From Acidobacteriota bacterium (GTDB lineage Bacteria > Acidobacteriota > Terriglobia > Acidiferrales > UBA7541), in contig QHYH01000169.1 of assembly GCA_003223215.1 (NCBI GenBank), positions 1 to 32,759 of the forward strand: DNA of 32,759 nucleotides. The letters run 5' to 3'. Numbering within the stretch: position 1 is the first letter of the stretch; each line of letters starts with the position of its first letter. Below are positions 26,602 to 32,034 of this stretch, piece by piece. The notes below the pieces were generated by a model. The model searched no databases, was not told the origin of the DNA, and worked only from the letters and a program-made list of their open reading frames with translations. The position numbers were made by a program, and so were the translations under genes.

Positions 26602-27954
26602 TCAAGCTTCGGCGGCAAGGGCTGCGGGAATTTGCATGGGGACGAGGAAATCGCTTGCGAGAAGATAAGCATAGAGGTGGCCGAGAGGAGGCGCGATACG
26701 CAGTTGTTTGGCGGAGACCCAGCCGTTCGTTTCGCTCCATTCCAAAGCAGTGGCCGAAAAACTCCCGATCGATTCCCGCAAATCCACCGTAGTCATGGGA
26801 TAGGCGTAGATGCGCACGTTCTGCGCGAAGAGAAGAGAGAGAGCTTCGAGACGCCTGCCTTCTAAATTGAAGTAGGAATCATCCAAGGCTCGGATCAAAA
26901 GCGAAAGACCTACGACGAAGCGCACCGGTGCTTTGGTGTGGCGATTCACGAGCGCCGTCATGGAATAAAGCTCGCGTTGCCGAAATAGGAGCACCTCGCC
27001 GTGTTGTGCGAGAAGTGCACCAATACGACGCATCAGGTCGGGGACTTCTGGGGCTGAGTCTTCGGGCCAAAGCGGAGCCGCCGACAGGCAGAAGACGCCC
27101 ATCGCTTGGGAGCCGGTTTCGCCCAGTTCCTTGCGAAGCTCCTCGAGGGCGGCCGCCAGCATTTGAGTATGAATCCGCCCATGAGCGGGATCCACGTGGC
27201 CGAAGTATCCTGGCGCGAGCACAACGGCTTTCTTGTACAGGGCTTCAGTGGGGGGAACAGCGGCACCTGTAGAGCTGAAGAACACCGCCTCGGCGAGTCC
27301 TGCGTGCACGAGGTAGGCCAAGAGTGTGGAGCGATCCCAGCTGGCAAACGCAGGGCCGCGAAAATCAACGAAGTCGATTTCGATTCGTTCTCTAGGGACG
27401 TCTTGTGCCAGGCCGGCGAAAAACGATTCCTTCGTCCCTAGTTGATAGAACGCGGCGTGGATAAGATTGACGCCCAAAATACCGATGGCTTCCTGCTGAA
27501 GGACATTCGAGGAATCCCGCAGGTTAATGTGCAGCAGAATATCGTTGGTTGGACCGCCAGGCTGCAACTGAAACCGCAGACCAATCCAGCCATGGGGGTC
27601 GTTGGTTCCGGCATAGTTACGCGCGGAGACCGTATCCACAAAGGAAAAGAAGCGAGTCTGCGATCCGCGAGTCTTTTCTAATTGGGTAAGCAGCTGAGCC
27701 CACTCGTTATCCAGCATGGCTTCAAGCCGTTGCCTGGAAACATAGCGCGAACCGGAGCCGTAGAGATCGTCGCTGACTTCCTTGTCGTATGCCGAGATAC
27801 TTTTGGCGACGGTGCCGGAGGCGCCGCCCACGACAAGGAACCAGCGCGCGACTTCCTGTCCGGCGCCGATTTCGGCGAAAGAACCGAAGGTCGATGGATC
27901 GAGGTTCAGGGTAAGCGCTTTCTGGTGGGTGTCGAGTTTTTCAGTGGAAGGCAT
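26602..27954 (-). CDS. Conserved cytosolic protein of unknown function, 450 residues
   Basis: I recognise the family look (FGSFAEIGAGQEVARWF, then GTVAKSISAYDKEVSD, then YVSRQRLEAMLDNEW) but not a proven function; similar proteins have been given conflicting names. There is no signal peptide and no membrane segment, so it is probably cytoplasmic. Several Asp/His-rich stretches and a well-kept frame indicate a real, selected gene. ATG 27954 begins MPSTEKLDTHQ; an upstream TTG at 27987 is possible. It is flanked by the long intergenic region on one side and by a transposase graveyard on the other, so no operon context helps. Confidence 0.7.
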   Translation of the reverse strand: MPSTEKLDTHQKALTLNLDPSTFGSFAEIGAGQEVARWFLVVGGASGTVAKSISAYDKEVSDDLYGSGSRYVSRQRLEAMLDNEWAQLLTQLEKTRGSQTRFFSFVDTVSARNYAGTNDPHGWIGLRFQLQPGGPTNDILLHINLRDSSNVLQQEAIGILGVNLIHAAFYQLGTKESFFAGLAQDVPRERIEIDFVDFRGPAFASWDRSTLLAYLVHAGLAEAVFFSSTGAAVPPTEALYKKAVVLAPGYFGHVDPAHGRIHTQMLAAALEELRKELGETGSQAMGVFCLSAAPLWPEDSAPEVPDLMRRIGALLAQHGEVLLFRQRELYSMTALVNRHTKAPVRFVVGLSLLIRALDDSYFNLEGRRLEALSLLFAQNVRIYAYPMTTVDLRESIGSFSATALEWSETNGWVSAKQLRIAPPLGHLYAYLLASDFLVPMQIPAALAAEA

Positions 27955-28106
27955 AGCCACGTTCCCGTCGAGCGAACTTCTCTCCAAGAGGCGCGCGAGT
28001 ACAATTCTACCGCATCTGAGCCGTAGAGCCTCTGCCTTCAGGTATGGGGATATAAGTGTACTAGGAGACTATTAACAAACAAAAAGCGAAGATGTATACT
28101 TTCCGA

Positions 28107-28390
28107 ATGATGCTAGTATACAGGTCAAATAACTTACAGTGGCAAATATCACGTTCTTTGGTGCCCCAAGTGCCGCCGCAAAGTTTTCTCGCCGGCGGCG
28201 TGGAGAAACGATTGCTCGGGTTGATACATAAGACTGCTGCGAGGTAGCGAGCCGAGGTCATAGCCCTGGGGATTCTGCCCGACCACGTCCATCTGTTCGT
28301 CGAGGTGGACCCGCAATTTGGCCTACACCGTTTGGTCAAGTACAGCAAAGGTGTCACGTCACACGAACCTAGAAAAGAGTTCGCCTCTTT
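28107..28390 (+). mobile_element. IS200/IS605 Y1 (HUH) transposase TnpA remnant
   Basis: VYRSNN, then in another frame YHVLWCPKCRRKVF, then after a further shift VEKRLLG, a TAG stop, and ALGILPDHVHLFVEVDPQFG with KGVTS. This is the order of a Y1 TnpA: HVHLF (His codons at 28284 and 28290) is the HUH metal motif. The catalytic Tyr region near the C-terminus is gone. At least two frameshifts and one stop make it inactive. Confidence 0.8.
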
Positions 28391-28611
28391 GCGAACCAGG
28401 TTGCCAACCAGGACTTCCGCGAGGCGATTGAGGCCGGGATCGCCATGATCCACATCAACACAGAATTGCGCGTGGCGTGGAGGAGAGGACTCGAGCAGCC
28501 GCTCAAGAAGAGGTCGGGTCCGTAGCGCCGTACAAGGTACTGCCCGAGGTCGTGCGCGAGGTGAAGGCGGTGATGGTTGAGAGGCTGATGTTGTTCAACG
28601 GCAAGTCATGA
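28391..28611 (+). pseudogene. 3' end of a class II fructose-bisphosphate aldolase gene
   Basis: Directly after the TnpA piece, DFREAIEAGIAMIHINTELRV is read, then WRRGLE, and after a frame change VAPYKVLPEVVREVKAVM and VERLMLFNGKS followed by TGA. This is the characteristic C-terminus of class II ketose-bisphosphate aldolases, a glycolytic enzyme family. Only about 70 residues remain. The body of the gene is missing and replaced by the transposase remnant. Confidence 0.8.
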
Positions 28612-28842
28612 CAAGCGCCGATCCGCATTGGCGTCCCTGCCCGATGTGTAGGGTAGCGCGACCACGCGATCAAGCCCCGATAGTCATCAAACCGCCCACG
28701 TGGTTCATAGGACTTAGTCCTCGAACGCGAGGGATTTCCATAGCAATTCCAATAGCGATTCACGCTGGCATCCATCCACCAGGTCTCCTTCAATTCGACG
28801 ACGCACAAATTCTTTATTCGTGAAGGGAGGATTGCCCGCCGG
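28612..28842. other. Short spacer between aldolase remnant and receptor
   Basis: About 230 bp, no recognisable gene. It may be more decayed DNA. The receptor stop at 28843 lies at its right edge. Confidence 0.35.
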
Positions 28843-31800
28843 CTACCACAGGAATTTCAATCCCAGTTGAATCTGTCGCGAAGTTGTTGAGGTCGATGTG
28901 ATCACACCGGCTGTGGGCGAAGGTCCGCCCGTCGCGGCGGTAAACACCACGGGATTTGGCGTGTTGAAGTTCGTATGATTGAAAATGTTGAAGAACTCGG
29001 CGCGGAATTGCAGGTTCAGCCGTTCGGCAAATGTCAGTTTCTTGGCCAGAGACAAGTCTGTCTCAACCAGACTGGGACCCGTCAAGACGTTTCTCCCCGC
29101 GTTGCCATAAGTCCCAGCAAGTGGCTGGATAAACGCACTGGGATTAAAGTACAAGCCGGGCCCTCCCAGAATCACGGGACCTGTAAAATTGGGGTTCAAC
29201 GAAGGCCGGACCGGATTGCGTGTGTCACCGTCGTTCGAGGGGTTGTAAGACAGTTGCGGAGTAAAAGGAAGCCCCGACTGCACAGTTTCGATTCCACTCA
29301 ATTGCCAGTCTCCGAAGAGCTTATTGGCCCAGTGGCTCCCGGACCCGTCATGCCGCCCAAAAGGAAGGTCATAGGTCGCGTTAATGACCGCAGCGTGCCG
29401 CAAGTCGAACGACGCGCGGCCATAATCGGATTTCTGTTGCAAGGGATTCGCAACATAGGCCGGCGAATTCGTTGCGACACTGGTATTCATGCTGTCCCCA
29501 TCATCAAGAGCTTTCGAAAACGTGTAAACGCCGCGGAACTGCAAACCGTGCCCGACCCGGCGATTTAAATCAACCTCGAGCCCGTGATAGGAACTTATGC
29601 CTTCCGAAAACCAATCCGTGGTGTTCCAGAAGGTGTCGTTAGCGAGCGGCGCGTTCGGTGGATTGTAATACGCCCCCGCGGGGTAACCCGCAGGGCAAGG
29701 AGAGGCGGGACAAATCGTTGGTACAGGCAAGTTCGCATCAACGGAAAGCAGTTCGTGATATCCATGCGAGCCAACGTAGCTGACGCCCAGGGAAGTGGCC
29801 GGTGAAAGCTGCTGCTCGATCTTGAAGCTCCAGGATTCGACGGTGGGCGTCTTCAGGTCAGGCTGAACCCCGCTTGGGAGCACTTTTGCTCCGGAGTACG
29901 TGGCGTTTGGACCGATGCTTGAAAATGGAATGTTCTTGACCGCAAAAACCGTGTTGTAAGGGCTGTTTTGGTCCAGGCGATAACTGAGGTTGTCGAGGAG
30001 CGCATAATACAAGCCAAAGCCCGCGTGAATCACGGTCCTTTTCTGTCCAAAGGGAGACCAGGCTAATCCCACACGAGGCGACGGCAGAAATCTTGCGTGG
30101 TTCACGGTGAAGACGGAGCTGCCAACAACGCGCTCGGTGAGAATCACGCCGTTCGCATCAAAGGCGTAGTTGGAGGCTCGTCCGTTCGCTTCATTCCATC
30201 CGTTGGTGAATTCTCCACGAAAGCCAAGTCGCACCTCAAGCGAGGGCTTGATTCGGATCGTATCCTCGGCAAAGGCGGCTCCCTCCGTGGATCGCCACGA
30301 CAACGGTGTGAAAGATGGCGCGTAGGTGTATGTGCTCACCGTGCCCTTCAGGAAGGTCTGCAAGTTCGAGAAAGAAATCTGGCCGTATTGGTCTTGCACC
30401 AGTGCGTCGTTGGCCTGGACGCGCTGAAGCCATGCTCCGAAGTTCAACAGGTGGACTCCGTGAGTCCACGTGAGCTGATCGGACACGGAGTACAAATTGC
30501 GAACCGCCGTCAGATTGCTCCCCGCGTTCGTGCCCCCGTTGGTAATCTGAGAGGCCCCGTTGAGCGTCGTACCGCCGCCTACTACGACGGCACCCACAGG
30601 CTGCCCGGCATGGATCCAGGCCGGCAAGGCGACGGTGGTTCCGCTGTTGAAATAAAACGCTCCGCGAGAGAAGCCCAAAGTCGCATGGTTGGCGAACTGA
30701 GGAGAGAAAATGTGGGTTTCGCTTGCGCTTGCTACCTGCTCTCGCAAGGTTAAGTCGACAAAGCTATTTGGATTCGTCGTTGGTGAGTGACCGGAGCTGT
30801 CATCTACGGTGTAAACGCTTGACAAAGAATCCATTTGGGAAAAGGTCTGATCAAAGCGCGCGGTGCCAAAGTCTTCCTGAATCTTTTGCAAGGGGTTGGA
30901 AAACGCTTCGGCAATTCCGCTGGCCGTCCCGGTCGAGGCCAACAGCTCCGGACCGTTGGCCACGGGCCACAAAGCCAGCAAAGGCTCGATGCTCGGGACT
31001 GCGCTGGCTCGCGAATTGCCGTCCGGCACAAGCGTGAGATCACTCAAGCCAAGATGCTGGCGGAAGCCTTCGTAGTTTGCGAAGAGGAAGCTTTTGTCCT
31101 TTTTGATAGGCCCGCCCAGCGAGCCGCCAAACACGTTGCGCTGAAATTGTGGAATCGTCCCGTGATCGAAAAAGTTTCGAGCATCGAGTGCGCTGTTGCG
31201 CAAGAATTCGTAGGCACTGCCGTGCAGCTGATTGGTGCCTCCAGCGGTGACAATACTCACTTGCGCGCCTGGACGTTTTCCGTATGCTGCGCCGTAGGTA
31301 TCCTTCACCACGCTGAATTCGCGGATGGCATCCACTCCGAGGAGCTGCCCGCTCACGCCGCCTGGCGTGTTATTAATTTCAGAGGCGCTCGTGAATTCCA
31401 CTCCGTTCAGGAGATAGAGATTTTCCTGGGGGCGCCTGCCAGACGCAGCAAACATGTTCCCGAGAACCGAGTTGGAGGTTCCAATGCCGCCAGCACGTTG
31501 TGAGGCGTAATTCACAATTCCGGGGTTGAGCGTGAGCAACTGGTCGTAGCTTCGTCCGTCGAGCGGAAGGTCCTTCACCTCCCGTTCTCCAACCAACCCG
31601 GAAACGTCCTCGTTTGTGACGGCCACTATCGTGGAATAGGCCGAAACCTCCACGCTTTGGTGCACCTCTCCGATTTGAAGCGCCAGATCTACTTCCTCTC
31701 GTTGGCCTACGACGAGAGTCACGGCCGTCCTGGCGCCTCCGCGAAATCCCGTTTTGAAGGCCGCGACTTGATACCGGCCCACAACAAGGGATGGGGCGCT

Positions 31801-32034
31801 AAACCGGCCGTCTTCATCCGTCAAAAGGTCGCGTTCCGCGCCAGTTTCGAGGTTTTTGATTTTGACGGTTGCTCCGGCAATGCCGGCACCGCTCGGGTCC
31901 TTCACCGAGCCCCACAGCGAAGCGTTGTCCTGAGCCGCAAGGCGCAAGGGAACCGCGGTGCTGACTAAAACGGCGAGTACCGCGTGGGCGATGAACTTTC
32001 CAACCTGATAAGCGGCTGCCTTGTGAGCACTCAT
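28843..32034 (-). CDS. Oar-like TonB-dependent receptor with carboxypeptidase-regulatory domain (second copy)
   Basis: The product has 1063 residues. A signal peptide ends RLAAQ. Residues about 40-125 are the regulatory beta-sandwich (SLWGSVKDPSGAGIAG, KIKNLETGAERD), then a plug (VKDLPLDGRSYDQLL, ENLYLLNGVEFT, YGAAYGKRPGAQVSIVTAGGTN) and the barrel, ending IQLGLKFLW. It is the same architecture as the receptor at 22014-25613 but clearly diverged, so it probably has a different ligand. ATG 32034 has GGAG at 32045-32042. No partner gene is adjacent. Confidence 0.92.
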   Translation of the reverse strand: MSAHKAAAYQVGKFIAHAVLAVLVSTAVPLRLAAQDNASLWGSVKDPSGAGIAGATVKIKNLETGAERDLLTDEDGRFSAPSLVVGRYQVAAFKTGFRGGARTAVTLVVGQREEVDLALQIGEVHQSVEVSAYSTIVAVTNEDVSGLVGEREVKDLPLDGRSYDQLLTLNPGIVNYASQRAGGIGTSNSVLGNMFAASGRRPQENLYLLNGVEFTSASEINNTPGGVSGQLLGVDAIREFSVVKDTYGAAYGKRPGAQVSIVTAGGTNQLHGSAYEFLRNSALDARNFFDHGTIPQFQRNVFGGSLGGPIKKDKSFLFANYEGFRQHLGLSDLTLVPDGNSRASAVPSIEPLLALWPVANGPELLASTGTASGIAEAFSNPLQKIQEDFGTARFDQTFSQMDSLSSVYTVDDSSGHSPTTNPNSFVDLTLREQVASASETHIFSPQFANHATLGFSRGAFYFNSGTTVALPAWIHAGQPVGAVVVGGGTTLNGASQITNGGTNAGSNLTAVRNLYSVSDQLTWTHGVHLLNFGAWLQRVQANDALVQDQYGQISFSNLQTFLKGTVSTYTYAPSFTPLSWRSTEGAAFAEDTIRIKPSLEVRLGFRGEFTNGWNEANGRASNYAFDANGVILTERVVGSSVFTVNHARFLPSPRVGLAWSPFGQKRTVIHAGFGLYYALLDNLSYRLDQNSPYNTVFAVKNIPFSSIGPNATYSGAKVLPSGVQPDLKTPTVESWSFKIEQQLSPATSLGVSYVGSHGYHELLSVDANLPVPTICPASPCPAGYPAGAYYNPPNAPLANDTFWNTTDWFSEGISSYHGLEVDLNRRVGHGLQFRGVYTFSKALDDGDSMNTSVATNSPAYVANPLQQKSDYGRASFDLRHAAVINATYDLPFGRHDGSGSHWANKLFGDWQLSGIETVQSGLPFTPQLSYNPSNDGDTRNPVRPSLNPNFTGPVILGGPGLYFNPSAFIQPLAGTYGNAGRNVLTGPSLVETDLSLAKKLTFAERLNLQFRAEFFNIFNHTNFNTPNPVVFTAATGGPSPTAGVITSTSTTSRQIQLGLKFLW

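Follow-up and report, generated by a model that had tools for sequence, protein, structure and literature searches.

Remnants of insertion sequences (IS) lying beside truncated pseudogenes are a common kind of arrangement, and the locus examined here has the same arrangement with no notable difference from it. Its two parts resemble better-defined systems, namely IS605-type elements, which carry tnpA and tnpB, and the class II fructose/ketose-bisphosphate aldolases (PF01116) found in Acidobacteriota and elsewhere. PMC6006769 describes the guide/target arrangement of IS200/IS605 elements and a mechanism that cuts at the element ends. We have analysed a window of 32,759 nucleotides, the whole of contig C109 in a draft Acidobacteriota genome (8.8 Mb, 279 contigs, 97.65% complete, 1.96% estimated contamination), in which one IS copy shares with IS605-type elements the flanking target tetranucleotide, the complementary guide, the subterminal hairpin and a Y1 HUH tnpA. 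Unlike such elements, it has no tnpA end, and neither tnpB nor a right end was found for it; tnpB is present in related copies, one of which, in a relative, is bounded by both ends. The neighbouring relic shares with intact class II aldolases the C-terminal ~68 codons but, unlike them, lacks about three quarters of the gene and is frameshifted in the part that remains.

Features of the tnpA/aldolase locus and its flanks (positions in the window)
Feature	Position	Strand	Basis
Open 461-codon ORF without recognised family; mechanical start TTG 19 bases from the IS target	26602..27987	-	no aldolase beside homologue in G003
Target tetranucleotide CTAC, next to the IS left end	28007..28010	+	left flanks of the copies in the genome part company just upstream; target and guide complementary in 13 of 15 own left ends
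Left-end guide tetranucleotide GTAG	28023..28026	+	complementary to CTAC; TTAC with GTAA in a genus relative
Subterminal left-end hairpin	28029..28049	+	predicted fold; sequence common to own-genome copies
5' three quarters of a tnpA (Y1 HUH transposase) pseudogene; HVH 28284-28292, TAG 28245-28247, indels near 28132 and 28184	28107..28405	+	PF01797 match; C190 alignment
tnpA/aldolase junction; shared bases two or three at most	28403..28406	.	GGTTGCC ends at 28405, where IS homology stops; aldolase homology from 28406
Class II (ketose-bisphosphate) aldolase pseudogene, 3' tail, frameshift ~28510-28525	28406..28611	+	profile matches; alignments to intact relatives
Open 1063-codon ORF, TonB-receptor-like outer-membrane protein	28843..32034	-	ORF open; profile match

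The start of the tnpA relic, an ATG at 28107, was placed by alignment with intact tnpA. A Pfam Y1_Tnp match (PF01797) at 28185-28403 (E = 7.0e-13, 51.5 bits, above the cut-off) includes one in-frame TAG and covers positions 19-91 of the 121 in the model, indicating that the Y1 HUH domain is present but truncated; the HVH motif (CACGTCCAT) lies at 28284. At the DNA level the relic is 86-87% identical to two further copies in the genome, on contigs C190 and C116; compared with the C190 copy, it has small deletions near 28132 and a 2-base insertion near 28184. Homology to the C190 copy extends as far as 28405, the 3' quarter of tnpA being gone, and the relic ends at about codon 99 of 132, before the point where the C116 copy reads QYVESQ, whose Tyr we take to be the catalytic tyrosine in the C-terminal helix of IS200/IS605 TnpA. 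Since the relic stops before this tyrosine, the window copy is a relic of a family member and not a working member, and it should be inactive by itself.

Seventeen matches to this IS were obtained in the genome when 40 of the 45 candidates were scored; 15 of them, the window copy included, have a left end, and the two that lack one are both on contig C120. An exact target/guide complement, CTAC/GTAG, occurs in 13 of these 15 left ends, the exceptions being L008 (CTAG/GTAG) and L048 (CTAC/GCAG), and one relative has TTAC/GTAA, a matched change of target and guide; the search pattern was devised after viewing the copies, and these counts display the arrangement and are not an independent test of it. 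A right end of the family was not found in 28406-29405, where the best score was 9 against a mean of 9.4 and a maximum of 14 in 200 shuffles, or anywhere in the window on either strand, where the best score was 12, compared with 36-42 for true right ends (those of six short copies in the genome and of relative G043). Likewise, a hairpin pattern search of the window matched only the left end, with no right-end hairpin downstream of the aldolase tail. The preliminary description had proposed looking for IS605-type hairpin ends at the borders; of these, the left end with its hairpin was located. The copies on C190 and C188 extend into tnpB, and both reach the contig end. Several other left ends in the genome are likewise without a right end: the one on C116 has none within 1.9 kb, a distance greater than the 1.75 kb of the one long two-ended copy, in G043, and for those on C258, C54, C98, C245 and C211 none was found in the 1.46-1.55 kb searched, less than a complete element would occupy.

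Six short elements of 164-296 bases (L047, L048, L049, L050, L007 and L008, on contigs C178, C65, C233, C148, C92 and C105) have both a left and a right end. All but L048 also match the end of tnpB over part of their length, and the six look like non-autonomous derivatives of the IS605 family. Two tnpA relics, L004 (C188, 1501-2000) and L005 (C120, 1500-1615), have pieces inverted and reordered, and in each an inverted piece meets forward sequence close to base 170 of the element; this scrambling could be rearrangement or misassembly.

From 28406 onward the sequence encodes NQDFREAIEAGIAMIHINTELRVAWRRGLEQPLKKRSG and, after the frameshift, VAPYKVLPEVVREVKAVMVERLMLFNGKS, ending in a TGA at 28609-28611. 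The preliminary description had placed the tail of a class II aldolase next to frameshifted TnpA pieces with an HVH motif, and both the PF01797 match and the alignments to intact aldolases confirm this; its "last 70 codons" are indeed the tail of the gene, corrected here to about 68 codons in two frames. The first 39 amino acids match positions 214-244 of the 277 in PF01116 with E = 0.0032 and 17.5 bits, below the 25.5-bit cut-off, and the best NCBIfam ketose-bisphosphate aldolase model gives E = 0.0012, far below the cut-offs, such weak matches being expected because the piece is short. The second piece (44 amino acids) alone matched no family. Each half alone nevertheless matches the six intact aldolases of genus relatives, with E values of 1e-13 to 3e-11 and 2e-7 to 1e-6, respectively, obtained in a small local database without filtering or composition correction. 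With its two halves joined, the tail is 53-62% identical to these six proteins, all seven sequences agreeing at 25 of 68 columns, and spans residues 220-287 of a relative's 292-amino-acid protein; the preliminary description had named a failed translated search as grounds for dismissing the aldolase, and the intact relatives were matched clearly. The N-terminal three quarters of the protein, presumably the site of the metal-binding and catalytic residues, were found neither at the relic nor elsewhere in the genome.

No other class II aldolase was detected in the genome by a Pfam family search, which is blind to the relic itself and would miss short pieces. A search with the tail gave no other copy (two chance matches, E = 0.28 and 0.88), and the full protein of a relative, with E up to 10, matched the relic alone; the intact copy that the preliminary description had proposed to look for was thus not found among class II genes in this genome. 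A class I fructose-bisphosphate aldolase with an open frame is encoded on contig C40 (514.7 bits against an equivalog cut-off of 327), and the genome also has a tagatose-bisphosphate aldolase and a deoxyribose-phosphate aldolase. PF01116 is matched in only 6 of 24 genus relatives and in 7 of all 41 genomes compared, own included. In a contig scan, relatives of the tail were found at 103 loci, the best 80 of which span Acidobacteriota, Bradyrhizobium, Luteibacter, Patescibacteria and others, a spread that suits a patchily distributed gene. Given the class I enzyme, the genome need not have lost its glycolytic aldolase along with the class II gene, and to call the class II gene a central-metabolism gene, as had been done, is misleading.

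The tnpA relic and the aldolase tail have the same orientation and no spacer between them, and the breakpoint, which corresponds to base 407 in the C190 element, falls within the coding sequence of tnpA and not at an IS end. Extended microhomology was considered and rejected, as comparison of GGTTGCC on the IS side with the Gly-Thr-Asn/Asp/Glu codons of the relatives leaves two or three shared bases at most, which is not enough to claim a repeat-driven deletion. Among 89 family genomes searched, the junction (28330-28620) was found in its own genome and in none of the 88 others. Matches to this region were obtained in 10 of the 89, own included, and outside the window each of them covers one side of the junction alone, either tnpA or aldolase; no more than 8 candidates were scored per genome, so that a very diverged junction could be missed. 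Moreover, none of the best 80 of the 103 aldolase loci has a match to the C116 TnpA or the G043 TnpB in its flanks (up to 3 kb per side, less at contig ends), and the same queries did recover the copies of the genome itself. Both flanking ORFs, of 461 and 1063 codons, are open, and it is therefore unlikely that sequencing error accounts for every break.

Searched at E up to 1, neither Pfam nor NCBIfam gave a match to the 461-codon ORF, and homologues with 73-74% identity occur in 2 of the 25 other genomes searched. In one of these, G003, the intact aldolase is on contig C1 and the ORF homologue on C11, with a different gene, and no aldolase, at the position of the relic; in G014 the two are also on different contigs, the ORF being cut by a contig end. 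The genes flanking the relic in the window are not shared with any of six genus-relative aldolase loci (compared over 20 kb at four of them and over 6 kb at the other two), where gene-order comparison gave three weak matches (24-49% identity), none of them to genes adjoining the relic. Neither flanking protein was found beside any of the best 80 of the 103 aldolase loci, and the DNA after the relic (28609-28845) matched no aldolase locus beyond a 16-base chance match.

We consider it probable, without great confidence, that the locus is a degenerate scar, left by an IS605 insertion in or upstream of an accessory aldolase, a deletion that fused the two, and later decay. An IS605-type element with left end, tnpA, tnpB and right end would have inserted after CTAC, upstream of or inside the class II aldolase and in the same orientation. 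A later deletion by illegitimate recombination would have joined element base 407 to a point in the aldolase some 68 codons ahead of the stop, with loss of the tnpA end, tnpB and the right end on the IS side and of the first three quarters on the aldolase side, and point changes and small indels would then have broken both relics. The account builds on two relics, a left end with no right end found downstream, a junction inside tnpA and a genome in which no further class II aldolase was found; from these we infer the order of events and a single deletion as the origin of the join. The common orientation of the relics without a spacer, a junction with two or three shared bases at most, the C190 and C188 copies that go on into tnpB and the breaks present in both parts argue for it, as do the other left ends of the genome for which no right end was found. 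Against it, the aldolase loci compared in relatives lack the flanking genes of the window, G003 and G014 have the aldolase and the 461-codon ORF on separate contigs, the DNA after the relic matches no aldolase locus, and no second genome among the 89 of the family confirms the junction. The absence of these flanking genes from the six relatives' loci and from the 80 aldolase loci, together with the arrangement in G003, makes rearrangement or local acquisition a serious rival, to which we assign a clearly smaller, though not negligible, chance: two unrelated relics may have been united by inversion or translocation, or an aldolase acquired here may have been broken afterwards, with the IS present before or after. 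In addition to the unshared flanks and the separate contigs in G003, the inverted and reordered tnpA relics on C188 and C120 indicate an IS family already rearranged in this genome; such a history requires more events than one deletion, however, and leaves the common orientation of tnpA relic and aldolase tail as a point against it.

An assembly chimera in this 279-contig draft is improbable. IS copies are typical misassembly points and the junction involves one; it appears in no other family genome searched, and the draft carries some estimated contamination. For the tail, however, no other copy was found in the assembly (foreign DNA in the sample being possible), the IS copy is distinct, at 86-87% identity to its nearest relatives in the genome, and both parts are decayed. 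Still less probable is a one-ended or aberrant IS605 transposition, in which TnpA would have used a surrogate right end past the aldolase and moved the left end, partial tnpA and tail as a unit. The left end looks genuine, with target and guide complementary, and the two relics share their orientation; this reading, already weakened by the missing right end, also has to face a tnpA cut inside its coding sequence, no right-end-like sequence found downstream, and no second copy of the joined unit found in the genome or in the 88 others of the family. The juxtaposition that the preliminary description had called a chimeric scar is real in the assembly. Its proposals that a transposon replaced, carried off or imported the gene are not supported: the breakpoint is inside tnpA, the kilobase beyond the junction yielded no right end, and the junction was seen in only one of the 89 family genomes searched. 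We give least credence to the idea that breaks recur in the part of tnpA around base 407, where single-strand processing, TnpB cutting or template switching may scramble elements repeatably. An inverted 20-base piece of the C188 relic (bases 408-389) ends one base from the junction in the window, a coincidence that by a rough, uncomputed estimate is not significant.

Both relics look dead, and their join looks like ordinary genome decay and not like a new mechanism. What had been reported as a chimera is pseudogene decay beside an IS stub, of importance mostly for annotation, and it cautions against taking an IS remnant next to a truncated gene as transposon-driven gene capture. For the organism, the locus is the record of a gene that was probably lost, an accessory class II aldolase, in one lineage with a class I enzyme.
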